Source: a virus
Reading direction: 5' to 3' (one strand)
IMG/VR virus record: IMGVR_UViG_3300020057_001229
Location: 1 to 64,000 of that record
Length of the DNA: 64,000 bases
The translations under genes were made by a program, and so were the position numbers. Position 1 is the first letter of the stretch; each line of letters begins with the position of its first letter. Shown in pieces: positions 4,761 to 28,106 of the stretch. Below the pieces are notes generated by a model. The model had not been told where the DNA came from and ran no database searches. It saw only the letters and a list, made by a program, of their open reading frames with translations.

Positions 4761-6989
4761 TTACCTCGCTAACGGCAAGAGAAGTTGGAGGAGGTCTAGC
4801 TTCTCGTCCGATATTACATCTTGCTTAAGAGCAGTTTTGGGATCAATAGCCTTCTTAAACCTTGGCAGTAAACCTTTGTCTGCAAACGCTTGGAGGAGTT
4901 CTTTAGAAGATTTCAAAGCTGGGATGGTGAGCAGTCGTTTGATAGTCGCCTTGTTGTATTCACCGATTTGTTCCCGGTGCTCAGCCATACGCTCCAAATA
5001 GTCCATTACGACATCTTTTGGATATTTCGATTTACGGTCGAGAAGCTTATTGATCGCAACCGCTTGCACATTGAACTCTTTAACTTCTAGCATCTTCAAA
5101 AGCGTCTTCGAGTTCATTAGATCTACGAACTTTGTAACACGGTCGTTCACTTCTCGAATTTCAATCTTTGTAGGGTTTGCGATCCAGCCTGCAAGTTGTT
5201 TGATGTTATGGTTAGACGCCTGCGTGAAAACGGAAGCATCGTCGCCAAGCTCATTAAGCAAAGGAGCTATCTTTTCGACTGTCGTAGCTTGCGGAAGTTT
5301 TTTGGCGAAGGCTTCCCACTCAGTATCCGTAAGCGAGATATCAACATCTTCTTTCATTGCGATGAGCAGGAGGTCCAACGCAGAGTTGACGTTCACTACA
5401 TTAAGCCAATCCGACGCATCGACTTGGGTCAGCAGCCTGCTCCTAATAAGGGGTGCTGTAAGCGCCATATCGACGAGGGTCTTAAACTGTTTGCTTTCTG
5501 GTCCGTCTGAGATGATCTGGTCGATAATTTCTGGATGCTTGAATATGAGATATGCTTTTTCTTTTTTATAATAGTCGTGGTCTATTAAAGCCTTTGCGTC
5601 ATGGGTAACTAAATCCTTTTCGGAGATGTCGAAAAGATCAAGCAGATGCTTAAAGTCTTCGTCGTTTCCTTTTAAGTTAATTTCGCTGACAATACTTGCA
5701 ACTAGCTTAGTTCCTTCGGTCTTAGCATTTAACACTACTTCTTGTTCATCATCGTCGTCTTCGTCGTCGTCTTCCTTAGCTTCGTATCTTCCCTTAGATG
5801 GTTTTAGGATGCCTAAAACACGAGGAATAAGAGCCTTAACCCACGAAGCATAACCTGACCTTTTATACAACAGGAAGAAGTTGTAAGCATCGTAGGGGTA
5901 ATCGTCAGATGCTAGACTTAATTTATCCCAATCTAAATTGAGGCTTTGGATCTCTTCGGGTTTTAAGCCCAACATAACTTTATAAAAGCTGTTGCCACGG
6001 TAGTCGTAGAGCGCCTCTTTAAATTCGTCAGGTCCGAGGGACTCCAGAATTTTGCTGAAATCCATCTCATGGGCACTCATGTAGGGAAGAAGACCGCTGA
6101 TATGTTTCGTCTCCATTCCAGCGAAGATTCTGTAGTCCGTGGCGTCATCACCATTGTTGGAGATGGCATCTTTTAGCTGTGAAACGAAGTCGTCTTTGTC
6201 TGCTGCTTCTTGGTAAAACCGAGGGACGAGCAGCGGCTTTTTTCTGTATATTTCGTCTACGATATCGTAGTCAGGATTTAAGATTTCGGGGAGATACTTC
6301 TCTCCGACTCTGAGAATATCTCCGAACAGGTCATGCTTACCCGTTGCATTGCTCTTGAAAAACTCGTAGGCAAATGACTTAAAGCGCTCTGGCTTGGGTT
6401 TTGTTCTTAGGTAAGCCTTTAAAAGTCTCAGTGCCGTTAATGAGGAGTCGCCTTCCTCAGCGTCATCCAACTGCTTCTTAAAAGCCGGACAAGAGATAAG
6501 AGCCTTAGCGACGGCTGGATCTGGCTCGTTAGAAGCAGTCAAGCGATTCACCATGGCTGTGAAAATGTTATCGTAGGACTCGTCTGTTCCAGTCGTCAAA
6601 ATATCGAGAAGTTCTGTGCTGTAGTCCCTTTCAAGAACATCAACGTCTTTAGAGAGCAAGTCTTCGTCGCCGTGCTCTTTAATGTCATCGAAAATCATTT
6701 TTCTCTGCACGTCATCTTTTAAGTCCATGAGGATGGAGAGAAGATTTGGACGGTGCTGATAGAGTGCGAACCTGTTCTCTAATGTAAAGGCTTTGGGTAG
6801 CGCCGTCATATAGATGGGAATAAGCTTTTCGTTTTCTCGAAAAAAGTCCACGAAGAAGTCATTATCGTTGATCCCTTCGGCTGCTTCAAGAGCAGTCTCT
6901 TTGTCTTTAGCGGCGTACTTAATAAAGACTTTTTTAAGGATGTTCTCAGACATTGATGCTACCTTTGATTGGAAGTTCGTAGCATTCAA
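4761..6989 (-). CDS. Large helical repeat (HEAT-like) protein, paralogue of 47562-50711
   Basis: 742 aa, almost entirely amphipathic helices with recurring D-x-x-hydrophobic patterns. An acidic run (EDDDEDDDDEQE, ~408-419) interrupts the middle. The C-terminus ends in LLLPLAR, matching LLVQLAR in the 47562-50711 protein. Probably a scaffold or surface-binding solenoid. Two starts are possible: TTG at 6989 close to AGAGGA, or ATG at 6953 with AAGGT upstream. It shares a short divergent upstream region with the phosphatase-like gene at 7013. Confidence 0.8.
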   Translation of the reverse strand: MNATNFQSKVASMSENILKKVFIKYAAKDKETALEAAEGINDNDFFVDFFRENEKLIPIYMTALPKAFTLENRFALYQHRPNLLSILMDLKDDVQRKMIFDDIKEHGDEDLLSKDVDVLERDYSTELLDILTTGTDESYDNIFTAMVNRLTASNEPDPAVAKALISCPAFKKQLDDAEEGDSSLTALRLLKAYLRTKPKPERFKSFAYEFFKSNATGKHDLFGDILRVGEKYLPEILNPDYDIVDEIYRKKPLLVPRFYQEAADKDDFVSQLKDAISNNGDDATDYRIFAGMETKHISGLLPYMSAHEMDFSKILESLGPDEFKEALYDYRGNSFYKVMLGLKPEEIQSLNLDWDKLSLASDDYPYDAYNFFLLYKRSGYASWVKALIPRVLGILKPSKGRYEAKEDDDEDDDDEQEVVLNAKTEGTKLVASIVSEINLKGNDEDFKHLLDLFDISEKDLVTHDAKALIDHDYYKKEKAYLIFKHPEIIDQIISDGPESKQFKTLVDMALTAPLIRSRLLTQVDASDWLNVVNVNSALDLLLIAMKEDVDISLTDTEWEAFAKKLPQATTVEKIAPLLNELGDDASVFTQASNHNIKQLAGWIANPTKIEIREVNDRVTKFVDLMNSKTLLKMLEVKEFNVQAVAINKLLDRKSKYPKDVVMDYLERMAEHREQIGEYNKATIKRLLTIPALKSSKELLQAFADKGLLPRFKKAIDPKTALKQDVISDEKLDLLQLLLPLAR

Positions 6990-7012
6990 TCTTCCTCTCA
7001 GAGTTCCCCAAA

Positions 7013-7504
7013 GTGATTATAACGCCTAAGCAATTGTCTAAAGAGCGCCTCGACATTGGTAACGCTTCCGGCATCTACGTTATGTCTCACGATCAAGCCC
7101 GAACGTTCTACCCGAAGAGGGACGCCTTCTGTATCCGCATTAGGTCGGCGAACTTTGAATGCCAGCCGCTCGTCCACGCCGACCGCTACAAAAGCATCGA
7201 CCTATTCACGTTCGCCGACGTAGACTTCGACGACAAAGACTTTGAGCCCTTCACCACGGCGCAAGCCGCAGCTATGGTTGATCTTTTCGAAAAGTTCAAA
7301 GACCTCAACCTCGTCGTCCACTGCATGGCTGGTCTGTCGAGATCACCGGCTACCGCTTTGGCTTTCCTCTACTTCAAGCAGGACGTTGAAGGCTTCAGGC
7401 AGGCTTCGCTCTACTTCACGATGGCTAACAGCCACGTCTACAGTCTGCTCAAAAACGAGATCGACCGCAGAGCCGAAATTTATACCAATAACGTTATGCC
7501 GTAG
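7013..7504 (+). CDS. Dual-specificity/tyrosine phosphatase-like protein
   Basis: 163 aa. HCMAGLSRS at ~103-111 is the CX5R P-loop of cysteine phosphatases (Cys104 nucleophile, Arg110). A general-acid Asp could lie in DVDFDDKD (~69-76). Could dephosphorylate host or phage proteins or RNA 5' ends. GTG start without an obvious ribosome site. Its 3' end overlaps the convergent ADP-ribosylglycohydrolase by 25 nt. Confidence 0.8.
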   Translation: MIITPKQLSKERLDIGNASGIYVMSHDQARTFYPKRDAFCIRIRSANFECQPLVHADRYKSIDLFTFADVDFDDKDFEPFTTAQAAAMVDLFEKFKDLNLVVHCMAGLSRSPATALAFLYFKQDVEGFRQASLYFTMANSHVYSLLKNEIDRRAEIYTNNVMP

Positions 7505-20136: not shown

Positions 20137-20565
20137 ATGCGTTATGTGAATTTAGTCGAAGCTAAGCTTAAAGGCTTTAAAGACAATAAAGTCGGTAAAG
20201 CGCTGACTGGCACAAAGTCTAAAGAAAAACTAACGATCCATTGGGAGTTCTTTGACCTCGACCGAGACGAGTTCTTCTATGGGTGTGAACTGAACATGGT
20301 AGTCAAAAATTCAACACGTATCGAAGTAGGTAGAGCCTATTTTAAATTCGATCAGGATGGGGACGAGCTTGTACCCTTTGACACTTACGATACAGCGGTT
20401 GAAGTAGATGAGAAATATAGACGACTTGGCATAGCGAACAAAATGTACGAGCTAGCTGAGAAGCTCACGTCCAAAAACCTCGTAGGTGGAGGTGAGCAAT
20501 CAAAAGACGCGAGCGCCCTATGGTCACAGAAAAATCGACCTTGGGGGAAGGGGTCCTATAAATGA
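20137..20565 (+). CDS. GNAT-like acetyltransferase
   Basis: 142 aa, AGAGGT 7 nt before ATG. The acetyl-CoA pyrophosphate-loop region VDEKYRRLGIANKMYELAE (~87-105) matches the GNAT motif A pattern (R-x-x-G-I/L-A/G). Substrate unknown. First of three genes joined by ATGA overlaps (20562, 21167). Confidence 0.7.
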   Translation: MRYVNLVEAKLKGFKDNKVGKALTGTKSKEKLTIHWEFFDLDRDEFFYGCELNMVVKNSTRIEVGRAYFKFDQDGDELVPFDTYDTAVEVDEKYRRLGIANKMYELAEKLTSKNLVGGGEQSKDASALWSQKNRPWGKGSYK

Positions 20566-21170
20566 GCCTCAAAAATACGATATCAGAACGCTACCACATC
20601 GTAGCCACAGGCGATTATCGCGGCGAGCATGAAGCGCCCGATCGCGACGGCAGCGCTCCTATGCATAAGCTAGACGGGACATACCCCGACGATATCTATT
20701 CGGTGGAGGGTGCTCGCATGTACGGCGACAGCGGCGGCGACAGCCGTGACGTTCAATCGGTATCCGTCATCATAGGCGTCAAAGGTAGACCGAATGCAGG
20801 TGTCAAAGTTTACCGAGCTGTCCCCAATATCCTCTCAAGAGATGGGCAGATCTCAGCACTGCAAGAGCAGAAGCGCTACATCCTGAAGCACGGCAAGGTA
20901 CCTAAAGGCGTCGTCACCAGTTTGAACTCTAGTCGCTACTACGAGAAACTCATTGATGACATTGCCGCTCTAGAGGCTCAACCTTCGACGCCCGACGCAG
21001 AGAAGATCAAGCTAAACAAAGGAGATTGGGTCACCATTAACCGTGCCTACGCCGTTGAACACGGCGAAAGCAACCTCAACAACAGATACAAGATCCTGAC
21101 AAAGACCGTCAAAGCCTCGCAGCTTTTCACGGACGGCAACAGTATTCATGAGTGGGGATTTGATCCATGA
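20562..21170 (+). CDS. Phage ART-like (ADP-ribosyltransferase fold) candidate
   Basis: 202 aa. Blocks YPDDIYS..GARMYGD, GVKVYRAVP, KGDWVTINRAYAVEHG and HEWGF resemble a domain seen in phage polyvalent proteins. Arg in YRAVP, Thr/Asn strand and Glu in HEWG could supply an R-S/T-E type NAD site. This is inference by pattern. Overlaps neighbours by ATGA on both sides. Confidence 0.6.
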   Translation: MSLKNTISERYHIVATGDYRGEHEAPDRDGSAPMHKLDGTYPDDIYSVEGARMYGDSGGDSRDVQSVSVIIGVKGRPNAGVKVYRAVPNILSRDGQISALQEQKRYILKHGKVPKGVVTSLNSSRYYEKLIDDIAALEAQPSTPDAEKIKLNKGDWVTINRAYAVEHGESNLNNRYKILTKTVKASQLFTDGNSIHEWGFDP

Positions 21171-21171
21171 C
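21156..21171. repeat. 16-nt direct repeat (second copy 21616-21631)
   Basis: GGGATTTGATCCATGA occurs across the start of the region after the 20562 gene's stop and again at the start codon of the 21629 gene, suggesting the 21172-21615 segment arose by a recombination or duplication at this sequence. Confidence 0.7.
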
Positions 21172-21562
21172 TCGTTTTTGCCAACTTGTTGCAGAAGCTA
21201 CAGCATCAGTGTCCGACCGCACGGTTCTAAAGCATTGGAATGAGACCTACCAAGATGACGAACTTGACCAAGATGAAGGTCCTGGCGAGTTGAAGCCAAA
21301 AGGTCTAAAGGATTTGAAAGGTTTCAAAAAATGGGAGTTGATCGACGTGCCTCTCTCGAAGATCAAACCGCACCACAACATGCCTGAAGATGACCGCGTA
21401 GATACATACACACAGATGAAGGAATCTGGAGGCACTGACTTTCCAGCGATCATTCTCATCCCTAAAGGCACGAAGTACGAAACGCTCGACGGCGTTCATC
21501 GCTATTGGGCTGCGCGCAAAAGTGGTGCTAAGACGATGAAAGCTTACGTTCCCTTGACTTAA
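21167..21562 (+). CDS. ParB/sulfiredoxin-like small protein
   Basis: 131 aa. LSKIKPHHNMPEDDRV, then ETLDGVHRYWAARKSGAKTM, match the ParB/Srx nucleotide-binding core (G-x-H-R signature). Single-domain proteins of this type in phages may act as nucleases, CTPases or ATP-dependent modifiers. Third gene of the 20137-21562 operon. Confidence 0.75.
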   Translation: MTRFCQLVAEATASVSDRTVLKHWNETYQDDELDQDEGPGELKPKGLKDLKGFKKWELIDVPLSKIKPHHNMPEDDRVDTYTQMKESGGTDFPAIILIPKGTKYETLDGVHRYWAARKSGAKTMKAYVPLT

Positions 21563-22139: not shown

Positions 22140-22191
22140 TTGACATCTAGGCTCTCGTTACCGTATCTTGCGGTTGCCTAAATTTTAGGCA
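22140..22191 (+). promoter_or_regulatory. Sigma70-type promoter with overlapping operator palindrome
   Basis: TTGACA (22140-22145), 18-nt spacer, TATCTT (22164-22169). Just downstream is a perfect 17-nt palindrome TGCCTAAATTTTAGGCA (22175-22191), then GGGAGGT and the ATG of the AIPR-like gene. Position fits a repressor or controller-protein site on the transcript start. Confidence 0.6.
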
Positions 22192-22225
22192 GTGCAAGTG
22201 ATCGTAACATGGGAGGTACTAGTTC

Positions 22226-23413
22226 ATGGCTAAGGCTAAGGCTAAGAATCTGAAGGTTTTTGCGTTTCCTGCTGAAGCATTTTCCCAGTTTATAAACCCT
22301 AAGTCACCAGGAAGTTTAATAATCTCAGCCTTCTACACCCCGGTCTCGTCTTTAAGTATCCTACCTGCGGATAACAACCCCCGACCAGGATTCGTACCAA
22401 GCCCTAACGTCCGCAGGGAGGTTCTAGCTACCGTCTCCGAAACTCCTGATTCCGCCCCACTAGCAGCCATGAATCGCGGGCTACTTGCTCAGGCGGAGAG
22501 TGTCGAATACCGAGCAAAGGATCGTACAGTTCTCATCACTTTCGATTTAAGTGAAATCAAGTGTGGTTTCCAGGGTTTGTGTGATGGCAACACGACGCAA
22601 ACCACGATTGCGCAAGCCCTCGCTAAGGGCGTCGTTAACCCTGATCAATACATCCGCATTGAGGTTTTGACGGGTGCTTCCGCTCTTATCGCTGAGAGGA
22701 CGGCTCTGGCTCGTAACAACAGCTTGGCTGTCAACGCTTTGACTGTGCGCACCTACACGGGGGTCCATGACTCTTTGAGGAGCCTGTTAGTGCTTTGCCC
22801 TGACAACGTCGTCTTCTCTCAAGGAGATGAAGCCTCTCACCGCAAGAACCACGTTGACGCCGGCAACGTCGTCCAACTTCTCTGTCTTGCCCATCCACTT
22901 CTCGTGCGTGGGGGGGATATGAATAAAGCGAAAAGCCTTTATGTTGGCATGTCGCCAGCGTATAAGCTTCTTGAAGGGCAAGCCAGCAAGTTCGACATGT
23001 ACGAACCTGAGATTGTGCAAGAAATCTTAGGGCTATACGACAGCGTTCATGCAATCTTGGGACCTAAGCCTCGCCAAGTAAAGTCGGCAGGAGACAACGG
23101 CAGCATTTGGAAAGGGTCCTACAGCCCTCTTTTCTCTCGCAACGAGATCGTAGGGCACCGTCTCGGCAAGGGCTTCGCTTTTCCGCTGTTCTTTGCCCTG
23201 ACCTCCGCTTTGACTGTTGTAGATGGGAAAGTGGTTTGGAACATCCCCCTTGAGGATGTTCTAAACCTGTGCAAACGCAAGCGCGACTCGCTCGTCAACT
23301 ATTTCCAGAAGTACGACAACGACACTTTTGGGAAGGATGTGGCGCAGTGGAACATGGTTCACAGCTTGGTTTGGGGCACCGCAAGCGCTTCTAATAGTTT
23401 GGTAGCGGTGTGA
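22226..23413 (+). CDS. AIPR-like protein (abortive infection/restriction associated)
   Basis: 395 aa, strong GGGAGGT ribosome site. The block CGFQGLCDGNTTQTTIAQA (113-131) resembles the G-x-x-D/N-G-x-x-T-x-x-I signature of AIPR proteins, which occur with methyltransferases and helicases in restriction and abortive-infection systems. The rest of the protein has no motif I can name, so the assignment is tentative. Stop overlaps the next start (GTGA). Confidence 0.55.
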   Translation: MAKAKAKNLKVFAFPAEAFSQFINPKSPGSLIISAFYTPVSSLSILPADNNPRPGFVPSPNVRREVLATVSETPDSAPLAAMNRGLLAQAESVEYRAKDRTVLITFDLSEIKCGFQGLCDGNTTQTTIAQALAKGVVNPDQYIRIEVLTGASALIAERTALARNNSLAVNALTVRTYTGVHDSLRSLLVLCPDNVVFSQGDEASHRKNHVDAGNVVQLLCLAHPLLVRGGDMNKAKSLYVGMSPAYKLLEGQASKFDMYEPEIVQEILGLYDSVHAILGPKPRQVKSAGDNGSIWKGSYSPLFSRNEIVGHRLGKGFAFPLFFALTSALTVVDGKVVWNIPLEDVLNLCKRKRDSLVNYFQKYDNDTFGKDVAQWNMVHSLVWGTASASNSLVAV

Positions 23414-23967
23414 GTCATCGCGAACTGGTTAAGGGCTTCAAAACAGCGGTCGCTCAAGCGATTGTGAATGAGATACCAGAGCACAAGGTATTTGTGCAGC
23501 CCTGTATAGGCTCATACGACGTTTTGAGCCTTAAGCCTCCCTCGCTTAGGGAGATTGTCAGCGACACAAATCTCCACGCCGCACATTTCTTTCGTGATTT
23601 GAGAGACAATACGTCTATAGCTAGAGAGCTACGCAGACACGGCTTTGATAGCCTTGCGTTTGATGCTTCTAAGATACCAATTGACAAAGTCTGTAGGGCA
23701 GCTTTGGATCTGCGTGATCCTTACCCCTTCGCGGCGAGGCTCAAGCTTTGCCAATTTGTCCACAACAGAAGTGAGAGTGTTCTTATCGACGCACATGTTC
23801 TTGATGAACATTGCGTCCTCTATCTCGATCTTCGTTTCACTCCTCTGGAGATTGATTTCAGCGGGCGTGCCAAAGCTTCCATCATCGTTCGCTCTGACTT
23901 TATAAGAAAGTACAAAGGTTTGCGAACTTGCACCGTAGGCAAAGAGCACCTTTATTTCAATTTTTAG
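23410..23967 (+). CDS. Dam-like protein lacking catalytic motifs
   Basis: 185 aa, GTG start overlapping the AIPR-like stop. Residues ~25-65 (HKVFVQPCIGSYDVLSLKP, SLREIVSDTNLHAAHFFRDL) follow the N-terminal half of D12-class adenine methyltransferases. Motif I (FxGxG) is replaced by CIGSYD and no DPPY is seen. It may be a target-recognition or pseudo-enzyme partner for the true Dam that follows 44 nt downstream. An alternative antisense frame covers its 3' half (see rejected list), so the C-terminus is less certain. Confidence 0.55.
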   Translation: MSHRELVKGFKTAVAQAIVNEIPEHKVFVQPCIGSYDVLSLKPPSLREIVSDTNLHAAHFFRDLRDNTSIARELRRHGFDSLAFDASKIPIDKVCRAALDLRDPYPFAARLKLCQFVHNRSESVLIDAHVLDEHCVLYLDLRFTPLEIDFSGRAKASIIVRSDFIRKYKGLRTCTVGKEHLYFNF

Positions 23968-24011
23968 CGTCTCCGCCATAAGGGCGATCCCGTATTGGAA
24001 AGTTTCCATAA

Positions 24012-24758
24012 ATGTTGAAGACGGTGCTACCTACCTGGGGATCTAAGAGCGGCATTGCTTCACAAATTATTGCCATGCTTCCACCCCACGATCTTTACAT
24101 TGAAATTTTTGCTGGATCGCTGTCTGTCCTTCTAAATAAGCCTCTAAGCAAACATGAGATTGTCTACGATCTTAGCCCTGAAATTATTAACTTCTGGCGT
24201 ATAGTGAAGAACAGCCCTAATGAATTGGCGGAAGCAATATGGCTAACTCCTTACGGGGCTCCAATCCAAGCGTTATCGGATGCCCATCAAGCTGCTGCTT
24301 TTTGTGCCTCCCAAAAGATGGGCTACAGCGGTCACACAAAGAAAAAATTCAGCCTTACTTTAGATACGTCACAAAGCACCACTTCAAAGGCTGAAGTGTG
24401 GGCAAACTGGTTTAAAAGAATTGCCCCAGCAAGTAGGCGCGTCTCAAACGTCACGATGGTTCTCGGAGACGGGCTCTCAGCGCTTGCAAAGTACGGCTGG
24501 AACAAAGACGCAGTCATCTACGCAGATCCTCCCTACTTCGGGCACGAACATGAGTACCAATATGGAATTGGGGTTGAGTATACTGACTTCGTCAAGAAGA
24601 TGGCTTTATGCAAAGCTAGGATCATAGTCTCTGAGAGAGAACAAGCACTTCAATTCTACAAGAATTGGTACGTCACAGAGACGGTAAATCTACGCAGTAG
24701 AACTAAGAGGGCAGAGTTCCTCCTCACAAACTTCCCCAGCATTGGGACTAGAATTTAA
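24012..24758 (+). CDS. dam: D12-class DNA adenine methyltransferase (Dam)
   Basis: Alpha-class N6-adenine methyltransferase, 248 aa. Motif I EIFAGSLSVL (31-40) and motif IV YADPPYF (DPPY at 172-175) are intact; an N-terminal GSK (10-12) is typical of the class. Recognition sequence unknown. Its 3' end overlaps the convergent C5 methyltransferase by 69 nt. Confidence 0.93.
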   Translation: MLKTVLPTWGSKSGIASQIIAMLPPHDLYIEIFAGSLSVLLNKPLSKHEIVYDLSPEIINFWRIVKNSPNELAEAIWLTPYGAPIQALSDAHQAAAFCASQKMGYSGHTKKKFSLTLDTSQSTTSKAEVWANWFKRIAPASRRVSNVTMVLGDGLSALAKYGWNKDAVIYADPPYFGHEHEYQYGIGVEYTDFVKKMALCKARIIVSEREQALQFYKNWYVTETVNLRSRTKRAEFLLTNFPSIGTRI

Positions 24759-25559
24759 GAGGATCTCGAAGGCTCGCCGCGCTTGGAGCGGTACCACTGA
24801 ATTCCCAAGGGACTTAATTCTGTCCACTTGATTGGGTACCCCATTAACCACTCGCACCAATTTGGGTTCAATTTCCCACGACAAAATGGTTGCACCTCCG
24901 AGCCAGGATTCAAGATCTTCCCCTCCTCGACGATCTGAACGTAGCGACCTAGACTTAAGCTGGTCGTGTGCCCCGTCTGGGTTTCCCGCCGAATGGAGCC
25001 TACCTTCGTCACTACATAGCGATCCTTTGCCCCGAGCACCGCCGCTGCCGTAGCGTCTGTCGTTGTTAAGGTGGGCAAGCATAAACCAACGTTTCCTCGG
25101 GTGAGGAGCGCCAACGGCTCCAGCCGATATAACGAGCCACCTACAATCATACCGAAGTTTGGCAATCTCTCCTGTAACTTCAAGTAGTCCGTTTTTGGTA
25201 ATGTTGGACACGTTTTCCAAGAAGACGAAGCTAGGTCGTAGATCATCAATAAGCCTAACGACTTCGTAGAAAAGACCGCTGCGCTGTCCTGCCAAGCCAT
25301 GTTGACTTCCATGGCTTGAAATGTCCTGGCATGGAAATCCCCCCGTGATGAGATCAATAGAGGACTCAAAGTGATCTTTTGACAAGGTTCGGACATCTCC
25401 CCAGATAGGGGCAAGATCAAGGTAACCGTCGTGCATTCTGGAGAGTAAGACACTCTGGCAAAATTTATTGTTTTCACAATATGCGATTGTTCTGGCGTAG
25501 CCTCTGAGGGAGAGGGACAAGCCCCCAATTCCGCTAAAAAGATCCAAGGCATTTAGCAT
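24690..25559 (-). CDS. dcm: DNA (cytosine-5) methyltransferase
   Basis: 289 aa, short for the family, mainly in the target-recognition region. Motif I LDLFSGIGG (5-13), motif IV GGFPCQDIS with catalytic Cys77, motif VI ENV (115-117), motif VIII region PHPRKRWF, motif X SLGNSVVP near the C-terminus. Makes 5-methylcytosine. Upstream promoter-like TTGACG and a tandem 9-nt repeat suggest its own regulation. No strong ribosome site. Confidence 0.95.
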   Translation of the reverse strand: MLNALDLFSGIGGLSLSLRGYARTIAYCENNKFCQSVLLSRMHDGYLDLAPIWGDVRTLSKDHFESSIDLITGGFPCQDISSHGSQHGLAGQRSGLFYEVVRLIDDLRPSFVFLENVSNITKNGLLEVTGEIAKLRYDCRWLVISAGAVGAPHPRKRWFMLAHLNNDRRYGSGGARGKGSLCSDEGRLHSAGNPDGAHDQLKSRSLRSDRRGGEDLESWLGGATILSWEIEPKLVRVVNGVPNQVDRIKSLGNSVVPLQARRAFEILLNSSPNAGEVCEEELCPLSSTA

Positions 25560-25568
25560 CTACTTTGT

Positions 25569-25586
25569 GTTTCCAGTGTTTCCAGT
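25569..25586 (-). promoter_or_regulatory. Tandem 9-nt repeat upstream of the C5 methyltransferase
   Basis: GTTTCCAGT repeated twice head-to-tail, 10 nt from the start codon. On the minus strand a TTGACG element lies further upstream. Spacing fits an operator or auto-regulatory site; unproven. Confidence 0.4.
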
Positions 25587-26113: not shown

Positions 26114-26722
26114 TTAGTCTTCGACAGGCAGCTTCATGAACTCGATGCGGTCAGTGATCCCTAGCTCCCACAGCATGGTGCGGATGTAGCCGAGGTCTAG
26201 CTTGTCGTCACCGAGCTTGTGGCGAATCGCCATAATGTCGGCTTTGTCTTTGTAGCGCATAGAGCCAAGCTTCGTCAGGATCAAGTCTTCCGCTGAGACG
26301 ATCTTGACGCTTTGACCTAAAAGGGAAGTTGACTTCGCTCTCTTTAGCATCGACGCCGTAAACGTTGCGTCTTTGTAGCCGATGAAATCAACTTCACGCC
26401 CGCGATACTCCATCTTGTAGATGACGCGGTTTGGCTTGACGTAGGGCAGCTCTTCCTTCAAGACGAAGCCAAGCTTCTTGAAGTGGTCAGCGAGCTTGTC
26501 TAGGTCTGCGGCAGCTACCACGAAGTCCAAGTCTTCGGTGGCACGCGGCTTAGCGTGGACAGAGATCGCAAGACCACCAGCAAGCACTGCGTCCTGAGAC
26601 GAAAGCTCTTTCAAGACGAGGTTCAAGAACTCGCCAAGCTGCATTCGGTTAGGGGCAGCGAAGATGGCTTCTAGTTCTAAGGCATCGGCGACGGCTTGTT
26701 GTTCTGGTTGTTTGACGGTCAT
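26114..26722 (-). CDS. Nucleotidyltransferase-fold protein (AbiEii/MNT-like)
   Basis: 202 aa, AGGGA before ATG. AGGLAISVHAKPRATEDLDF (~47-66) is the GG...R-x-T-x-D-x-D core of minimal nucleotidyltransferases, and VDFIG supplies the third acidic residue. C-terminal helices (SAEDLILTKLGSMRYKDK) are typical of this group. Such proteins are toxins (AbiEii), antitoxin modifiers or tRNA modifiers. No obvious antitoxin is adjacent. Confidence 0.8.
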   Translation of the reverse strand: MTVKQPEQQAVADALELEAIFAAPNRMQLGEFLNLVLKELSSQDAVLAGGLAISVHAKPRATEDLDFVVAAADLDKLADHFKKLGFVLKEELPYVKPNRVIYKMEYRGREVDFIGYKDATFTASMLKRAKSTSLLGQSVKIVSAEDLILTKLGSMRYKDKADIMAIRHKLGDDKLDLGYIRTMLWELGITDRIEFMKLPVED

Positions 26723-26966: not shown

Positions 26967-28106
26967 CTAAATTTGGACTCGGTGACATTGTGTTGACATT
27001 ATAGGATGTTGCTGAGCGTGAGGCTCAAGAACTTCGTTGTCGCCAGTCTCGAAAGGTGGCGTGGTCGTAGCGACCTTACACTCAAGAAGAACCCGTTCGA
27101 GGTCTTCCTCAGTTTCCAACTTGAAGAACCGATCGCCGGTTATCTTGTAGACCTTATCCCAGTCGATTTCCCGTAGCTGATACCTGCGTGGGACATCGTT
27201 TGGCACAGACATGTAGACGAATTCGGCGATGTCGAACGGCTTCTGAATGTTGGGTACAATAATACCTAGCCAGGCAAATCGTTTGATGGTTTTCAGTTTA
27301 TCAGCGTCTTTCTTTTGAACTTCCTTAAAAGCTTCCATGCCGAAAATTGGTTTGTAATGATGAATACCGTTGTACTCTAACACTATGTAGTAGTCCCCAA
27401 CCTTAATTACAGAATCGAATTCCCGCTCTCTGTTTCTATCTTTAACAGCTAGCGCCCCGACGAGCGTTGAAAGAGCGATTGTTGCTACAAGCTCTGGTCG
27501 AGTAGTGGACCTGTTGCGCTTCATATGCGAGCAAATATCATTTAGAATACCAAGCTTACAAGCGGCGCTATATTTGCCGGGACTACCTTCTTTGAAGGCT
27601 AATCTTGTCTCATATTTCAAGGCTTCAGCTTGAAGTGACTCTAAAGTGTGTTCCTTGTAACGAACAATCATATGCGAGCAAATATCAGGTATAATACCAC
27701 GCTTATGAGCGCTATAATATTCGCTGCGGCTACCTTCTTTGAAGGCTGCCATTGTCTCATATTTCAAGGCTTCAGCTTGAAGTGACTCTAAAGTGTGTAC
27801 CTTGTGCTGAGCAATCATATGCGAGCAAATATCATTTAGAATACCAAGCCTCCGAGCGGCGCTATATTCGGCGGGACTACCTCCTTGGAAGGCTGCCCTT
27901 GTCTCATATTTCAAGGCTTCAGCTTGAAGCGACTCTAAAGTGTGTTCCTTACGCTGAGCAATCATATGCGAGCAAATATCGTCTAGAATACCAAGCCTCC
28001 GAGCGGTACTATATTCGGCGGGACTACCTTTCGAGAAGCCTATCCTTGTCTCATATTTCAAGGCTTCAGCTTGAAGTGACTCTAAAGTGTGTTGTTTATT
28101 TGCCAC
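26967..28106 (-). CDS. Four-repeat DNA-binding protein with VSR/EDxHD-like nuclease domain
   Basis: 379 aa, GTG start with GGAG upstream. Four tandem 49-aa repeats (28091 to 27504), each starting HTLESLQAEALKYET and ending DICSHM. The first 15 residues are identical in all four, indicating recent expansion. The C-terminal domain has VLEYNGIHHYKP, then KKDADKLKTIKRFAW, like very-short-patch-repair or EDxHD homing nucleases. The repeats resemble DNA-binding modules of phage mobile nucleases. Probably a homing-type endonuclease. Confidence 0.75.
   Translation of the reverse strand: MANKQHTLESLQAEALKYETRIGFSKGSPAEYSTARRLGILDDICSHMIAQRKEHTLESLQAEALKYETRAAFQGGSPAEYSAARRLGILNDICSHMIAQHKVHTLESLQAEALKYETMAAFKEGSRSEYYSAHKRGIIPDICSHMIVRYKEHTLESLQAEALKYETRLAFKEGSPGKYSAACKLGILNDICSHMKRNRSTTRPELVATIALSTLVGALAVKDRNREREFDSVIKVGDYYIVLEYNGIHHYKPIFGMEAFKEVQKKDADKLKTIKRFAWLGIIVPNIQKPFDIAEFVYMSVPNDVPRRYQLREIDWDKVYKITGDRFFKLETEEDLERVLLECKVATTTPPFETGDNEVLEPHAQQHPIMSTQCHRVQI

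Follow-up and report, generated by a model that had tools for sequence, protein, structure and literature searches.

A gene nested in the cytosine methyltransferase gene of a putative phage DNA-methylation locus with an AIPR-like protein

We analysed a window of 64,000 bases of viral DNA, bases 1-64000 of the 88,687-base virus record IMGVR_UViG_3300020057_001229, and concentrated on a small locus at positions 22140-25559. Here ORF1, the open reading frame (ORF) of an AIPR-like protein, is followed by ORF2, a D12-like frame that overlaps it by four bases, then by an intact D12 methyltransferase gene (Dam) and finally by a convergent C5 methyltransferase gene (Dcm). Hidden in Dcm is a second long frame, and the tests on its sequence described below argue that it is a real gene. 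As for the locus as a whole, we see an even chance that it serves DNA methylation as an accessory locus in a large tailed phage, with the AIPR-like protein as its regulator or sensor. The gene-by-gene description in an earlier note on this DNA (AIPR-like gene, overlapping N-terminal half of a D12 methyltransferase without catalytic motifs, intact Dam, convergent Dcm) was largely right, all of its listed elements being present, but it missed the nested frame. The genes are the following:

22226..23413, plus strand: ORF1, AIPR-like, 395 amino acids; modelled as a ParB/Srx-like N-terminal domain and a helical C-terminal part
23410..23967, plus strand: ORF2, 185 amino acids; N-terminal module of a D12 methyltransferase without DPPY
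24012..24758, plus strand: D12-class N6-adenine DNA methyltransferase (Dam-like), 248 amino acids; PF02086, DPPY
24690..25559, minus strand: C5 DNA methyltransferase (Dcm), 289 amino acids; PF00145, phrog_363
24755..25552, minus strand: gene nested in Dcm, +1 frame, 265 amino acids (265 codons); phrog_1008-like

The nested frame starts 7 bases downstream of the Dcm start codon and covers nearly all of the gene. It matches phrog_1008 (E 1.1e-10), and the Dcm frame matches phrog_363 (E 4e-60); the nested protein is therefore already catalogued as a family. Both long frames are found on one DNA in Salmonella phage S9-5, Acinetobacter phage ABMM1 and Microcystis phage Mel-JY01, as well as in MT838282.1 and in virus Rctr197k, which is annotated in the nested frame only. 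A literature search on overlap in phage cytosine methyltransferase genes, with older subscription literature outside its scope, found no publication describing the nested gene.

The openness of the frame was measured in 80 viral relatives of Dcm. These were fetched with search patterns taken from the Dcm frame, and because the genes of the seed alignment carried the nested frame, the sample represents the neighbourhood of this Dcm and not all phage Dcm genes. In each gene, codons were permuted 400 times among positions of the same amino acid, which keeps the protein and its codon usage, and p ≤ 0.01 means that at most 3 of the 400 permutations matched the gene. At this threshold the longest +1 open stretch (median 0.97 of the gene) was beyond permutation in 68 of the 80 relatives, whereas the +2 frame was so in none of the 80 and control D12 genes in only 1 of 77. 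Eight more distant Dcm genes gave no case (0/8) in the +1 frame; two of them, L015 and L016, are viral under a script label of bacterial, and L057 is a 78-codon piece. A profile of the nested protein built without the window gave the window's +1 frame 95.8 bits against a maximum of 43.9 in 200 permutations, and the +1 translation scored above all 200 synonymous permutations in 12 of the 13 genes tested.

The beginning of the gene tells the same story. Where the codon after the Dcm start encodes Asn (39 of the 80 loci), it is AAT in 38 loci, compared with 252 of 627 Asn codons elsewhere, and it is by this AAT that a nested ATG arises four bases later. Counted over 75 of the 80 Dcm loci plus 4 others, the distance from the Dcm start to the nested ATG is 4 bases in 38 of 79 loci and 7 bases, as in the window, in 6 of 79; 28 of 79 have no nested ATG within 60 bases. 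Differences between relatives fall on third codon positions in a share of 0.462 for Dcm versus 0.503 for D12 genes, and in the closest pairs the shares are 0.391 (3 pairs) and 0.698 (9 pairs). Such a shift is expected if the same bases are third positions in Dcm and second positions in a further gene. We thus find the mark of a dual-coding gene, namely that the second frame is under selection of its own, over and above that on the first. Weighing against a nested gene are the 12 of 80 relatives that miss p ≤ 0.01 and one gene, L213, that does not rise above its permutations (22 of 200). The explanation that nothing but codon composition, or the conservation of Dcm, keeps the frame open can draw on these relatives and on the part of the +1 similarity that the Dcm sequence itself forces (permuted averages of 17.5 to 116.8 bits), but permutation fails to reproduce the openness in most relatives, the other frame does not show it, the D12 controls do so only once, and the start carries its AAT bias, all of which makes it very improbable.

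What the nested protein does may be gleaned from C5 methyltransferases made of two polypeptides. M.EcoHK31I and M.AquI are of this kind, and in M.EcoHK31I motif IX sits on the small subunit and motifs I-VIII and X on the large one, as given in excerpts of PMC3404938. The window's Dcm matches PF00145 at 2e-37 over profile positions 2-164 of 324 and shows motif I, the PC motif, ENV, the RKRWF region and, further on, GNSVVP. By its PF00145 match and GNSVVP it fits a large subunit of the M.EcoHK31I type, with motifs that we presume to correspond to I-VIII and X. The small gene of M.EcoHK31I is reportedly nested within the large one. In the nested protein the stretch LNPNWCEWLMGYPIKWT resembles motif IX. 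The organisation thus resembles that of two-polypeptide C5 methyltransferases such as M.EcoHK31I, and by this analogy the nested protein is most likely a second polypeptide of the C5 enzyme with a motif IX-like part. Several points speak against such an assignment. Pfam finds no family in eight nested-frame proteins even at E 10, and hence the basis of the motif IX reading is LNPxWVEWLMGxPxGWT together with the PHROG labels; moreover, the likeness to M.EcoHK31I is one of described motif layout. Unlike what is described for M.EcoHK31I and M.AquI, the nested protein takes up almost all of the gene, 265 of its 289 codons.

Other counterparts are partial. Both phrog_363, which covers the Dcm frame, and phrog_1008, which covers the nested one, are labelled DNA methyltransferase, but their listings give no hint of both being read from the same DNA. 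In Streptomyces phage Lilbooboo, genes 32 and 33 form a methylase split over two frames, as in the window, and gene 33 matches phrog_1008 and has motif IX-like and GNGVVP motifs. However, the two genes as annotated overlap by only 32 bases, and gene 33 itself carries motif X. ShiLan, as described in excerpts of PMC11855218, is an example of an out-of-frame HNH insertion in phage methylases and is similar in having a hidden frame within a phage methylase gene. There the frame is an inserted HNH nuclease, whereas here it runs through the body of the methylase and has no HNH family match.

A broader proposal, which we make tentatively and consider rather doubtful, is that the C5 methyltransferases of this phage branch are generally dual-coding, and that in the phage of the window the nested product works together with an AIPR-like sensor of methylation and a catalytically inactive D12 partner. 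Nearly every such gene would then hide a full-length +1 protein starting a few bases after the methyltransferase, ribosomes would choose between the two products at one Shine-Dalgarno site, and the nested protein would act as an effector of its own or as a second subunit that the enzyme needs. By the two-polypeptide precedent the dual-coding arrangement would be known in kind; in phages it appears to be much wider than the annotations examined suggest.

The intact D12 protein matches PF02086 at 3.8e-13 (50.2 bits, cut-off 22). It stays below the cut-off of the NCBIfam dam model TIGR00571 (46 bits versus 114.85), and GATC as its target is therefore a guess. Viral contigs scanned with Dam alone gave no relatives. 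The 3' end of Dcm overlaps Dam by 69 bases. Not a single GGCC is present in the entire record, where 235 are expected, nor in 22140-25559, where the locus's own composition predicts 12. The locus has therefore either resided in the phage lineage for a long time or come from a donor with the same avoidance. The record is also devoid of AGTACT, CAGCTG, CGTACG, CTCGAG, CTGCAG, GAGCTC, GCATGC, GGCGCC, GTCGAC and GTGCAC, each expected 10 to 31 times, and the words absent from the window, L007 and L008 amount to a strong avoidance of restriction-type palindromes.

ORF1 scores 24.9 bits with the Pfam AIPR family (PF10592), whose gathering cut-off is 25, and for this reason we term it AIPR-like and do not file it as an AIPR member. 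Its homology to the AIPR protein WP_041592334.1 of a Terribacillus plasmid, itself assigned to PF10592, extends over the full length (tblastn E 3e-15, 95% coverage, 24%), and of the 78 AIPR ORFs collected by scanning bacteria and viruses it matches 71 at E ≤ 1e-5 and one, L066, not at all. (The scan had given 82 loci, of which L096, L100, L104 and L108 were dropped as having no single ORF; set A4 took 53 of the 78 ORFs.) ORF1 is clearly a divergent AIPR homologue as far as these comparisons go. The AIPR signature DGGHT, which occurs in 52 of 54 aligned rows, a count partly produced by construction because one search pattern held DGGHT, reads DGNTT in ORF1. The neighbours also differ, ORF1 adjoining D12 genes in a phage and the Terribacillus gene having helix-turn-helix and Z1 company. 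The codon-usage score of ORF1, 0.120, is normal. Viral contigs scanned with ORF1 alone contained no relatives, and PDB sequence searches with ORF1 and with sets A1 and A2 found nothing.

A structure model of ORF1, computed from 54 sequences, has a mean pLDDT of 83.3. Plain Foldseek found no match to it in the PDB under E 0.001 (best E > 0.1), and in a viral structure library the top match carried the name AIPR (E 1.4e-7). The five entries listed by VIA-align share the ParB/sulfiredoxin fold and align over residues 25-179: pNOB8-like ParB-N (Z 6.4 and 6.0), Caulobacter ParB (6.3), SspE (5.2) and sulfiredoxin (4.8). The resemblance to SspE and ParB is thus confined to that part of the model and to Z values of 4.8-6.4. 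In excerpts of Makarova et al. (PMC3506569), the N-terminal domain of DndB, a negative regulator, belongs to the AIPR family; DndB, SspE and ParB, grouped by the ParB/Srx fold, would be among the counterparts of ORF1. To judge from sequence and model, a role for ORF1 in regulating or sensing methylation is more probable than one as a nuclease.

The GTG start of ORF2 sits inside the stop of ORF1 (GTGA), and this overlap suggests translational coupling of the two. Residues 9-68 of ORF2 match D12 methyltransferases (hhalign probability 96.7, E 3.6e-10), BLASTP aligns it with the neighbouring Dam (32% over 59 amino acids, E 3e-8), and the N-terminal module of the D12 fold, the region of motifs X to II, is present. 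In place of DPPY the MAFFT alignment has YLDLRF. The second half gives an hhalign P of 0.0065 with D12. An AlphaFold2 model (mean pLDDT 62.8) matches many Rossmann methyltransferases, E. coli Dam included, at Z under 5, which is no independent proof, as its alignment was full of D12 proteins. Viral contigs scanned with ORF2 alone produced no relatives. A recent tandem duplication of Dam is not favoured as the origin of ORF2, which is 24% identical to Dam and 24-28% identical to other D12 proteins. From its sequence ORF2 could be a paralogue in decay or, just as well, a partner of Dam without catalytic function.

The genome setting was judged from the gene content of the window, which includes a major head protein (phrog_2522), 15 tRNA genes and a tRNA-His guanylyltransferase. 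Its head protein is 70% identical to that of the 236,430-base virus record G001, and on this ground the source record is probably one part of a larger, jumbo-phage genome. Genes common to G001 and the source record are scattered only. ORF1, Dam and Dcm, searched singly, have no match in the 236 kb of G001, and tblastn with all ORFs found none for any gene of the locus, which by this comparison is therefore accessory. In G001, GGCC is not among the six most avoided words.

We thus return to the locus as a phage DNA-methylation locus. One operon would encode the AIPR-like protein, the D12-like protein without a catalytic motif and a D12 adenine methyltransferase predicted to be active, and the convergent stretch would encode the C5 methyltransferase together with a second protein from the +1 frame of the same DNA. 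The D12 enzyme, perhaps at GATC, and the C5 enzyme would methylate the phage DNA against host restriction; the nested protein would, by its anatomy, be the second polypeptide of the C5 enzyme; and the AIPR-like protein, with its ParB/Srx-like domain and DGNTT, may sense or regulate the methylation. Some results are at odds with this picture. GATC occurs 423 times in the record versus 390 expected, neither avoided nor clearly enriched, so that no GATC target can be read from the genome. The N-terminal HEPN domain with which AIPR proteins are described in excerpts of PMC3506569 is not shown by the model of the short-form ORF1. The codon-usage score of ORF2 is weak (0.046, compared with 0.08-0.336 in 18 training genes and 0.166 in one antisense ORF), and its reality as a gene therefore rests on homology and coupling. 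Finally, the D12 profile score of the ORF2 C-terminal half was reached by 17 of 2000 shuffles, those without any match being taken as lower, a Smith-Waterman comparison of this half with D12 was not significant, and its pLDDT is only 36-72.

In the literature, as far as excerpts of PMC2292703 and PMC3506569 go, AIPR proteins associate with restriction-modification, which the earlier note had stated and our own neighbour count bears out. Seven of 80 bacterial AIPR loci have a D12 methyltransferase at a distance of about 6 kb or less, where 0.22 would be expected (Poisson P 4e-9) from 51 D12 matches in the 205.6 Mb of the 80 genomes scaled to the 0.887 Mb examined. The AIPR-D12 neighbourhood in bacteria is real. 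The excess shows neighbourhood and not cooperation, because the two D12 searches, of loci and of genomes, differed in models and thresholds and because defence genes generally cluster. Among 122 neighbour proteins of AIPR (genes of about 600-2400 bases within 2.5 kb) were DndB (4), DpnII (3), N6_N4_Mtase (3), GmrSD (2) and AbiH (2). The closest parallel to the window is L061, with an N6_N4 methyltransferase, a D12-DpnII fusion and AIPR, all in one direction.

This company favours the view that the locus is the remnant of a captured bacterial DpnII/AIPR-type locus that has lost its endonuclease, ORF1 and ORF2 being decaying passengers and only the methyltransferases at work. D12 or DpnII genes are frequent in bacterial AIPR loci; the short ORF2, with its missing DPPY and weak codon score, and the altered signature of ORF1 would fit decay. 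ORF1, however, has an unbroken frame of 395 codons, models well and has a normal codon score and a Shine-Dalgarno-like site, and the missing GGCC suggests long residence under the phage's selection, or the donor mentioned above. We regard such a remnant as unlikely.

The earlier note had proposed an undescribed restriction or inter-phage exclusion cassette with ORF2 as a recognition or inhibitor subunit; in such a cassette ORF1 would be the effector acting on unmethylated DNA and Dam would protect the phage. Its family links, AIPR and D12, hold up, and the defence neighbours of AIPR genes, L061 above all, and the coupling of ORF1 to ORF2 are in its favour. The set does not recur, however: apart from its absence from G001, an AIPR frame lies within about 4 kb of none of 80 viral D12 loci and AIPR is found in none of 14 records with close Dcm relatives, records that are often fragments. 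The match of the AIPR profile to the window itself in the viral D12 scan came about by construction and was not used; set A9 took 46 of the 77 viral D12 genes. No endonuclease or nuclease family was recognised in any ORF of 22226-25559 by Pfam, PHROG and other family scans, and for this reason the exclusion cassette stays unproven. As the conserved DGGHT is altered in ORF1 as well, we think this explanation quite unlikely.

Some of the AIPR loci have features of their own. In viral records AIPR was found only in two near-identical loci, L010 and L011, as a lone gene among opposite-strand genes; that of L011 occupies 5992-7167 on the strand opposite to its near neighbours, and the 13-kb stretch around it has no GGCC, ACGT or CCGG. 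L002 (MT838632.1), filed as a bacteriophage, has adjoining genes for DpnII, an Mrr-like nuclease and a TIR-like protein (the latter two recognised by eye) and AIPR, the last with an internal stop, and is more likely a bacterial defence island than a phage. Single proteins with two D12 domains occur beside AIPR, as in L090 (505-2838), which also has an AlwI-type endonuclease, or elsewhere (G007, G008, G026, G064).

Small elements lie upstream of ORF1 and of Dcm:

22140..22169, plus strand: sigma-70-like promoter TTGACA-18-TATCTT, consensus score 10 of 12
22175..22191, strandless: perfect 17-nt palindrome TGCCTAAATTTTAGGCA, 8-base arms and 1-base spacer
22212..22216, plus strand: GGAGG, Shine-Dalgarno-like, 9 bases before the ORF1 start
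25569..25586, minus strand: two copies of the 9-base repeat GTTTCCAGT, upstream of Dcm

The promoter and palindrome of the earlier note fare differently. Perfect 17-nt palindromes like TGCCTAAATTTTAGGCA occur at only 4 sites in the 88,687 bases, and this one, just downstream of the promoter-like site, is a possible operator by its sequence. The promoter-like site is present, but with 3 such sites in the region versus 3.7 in shuffles it is no commoner than chance. The tandem repeat, GTTTCCAGT, is there as described, and being this short it may have arisen by chance.

The surroundings of the locus contain further genes of note. Upstream, 20562-21170 and 21167-21562 (both plus strand) are adjoining, overlapping genes, one with a match (E 2.7e-33) to the PHROG family called ParB C-terminal domain and the other with a weak match to a ParB-like N-terminal part. 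Downstream, 26114-26722 (minus strand) encodes a DUF6036/AbiEii-type nucleotidyltransferase, to which G001 has two weak relatives, and 26967-28106 (minus strand) a protein in which a unit of some 50 residues is repeated about four times (phrog_20046, 4 stretches) and whose C-terminal stretch weakly matches homing/HNH endonuclease families. Beyond the window, L008 includes at record bases 86221-88155 (minus strand) a PP-loop, PAPS-reductase-like protein, apparently split, as seen by eye, by an intein-like stretch.

If dual coding is general, a whole group of phage cytosine methyltransferase genes has been annotated as encoding one protein where two are made, the second being absent from Pfam in our own scan and listed in PHROGs as a separate methyltransferase family. 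One could then test if an orphan methyltransferase of this sort works on its own, and expression of the annotated frame alone may have yielded an inactive enzyme. Also of note is that the AIPR-like operon would be a phage case of a defence family whose neighbours are a D12 methyltransferase and a D12-like protein that lacks the catalytic motif.

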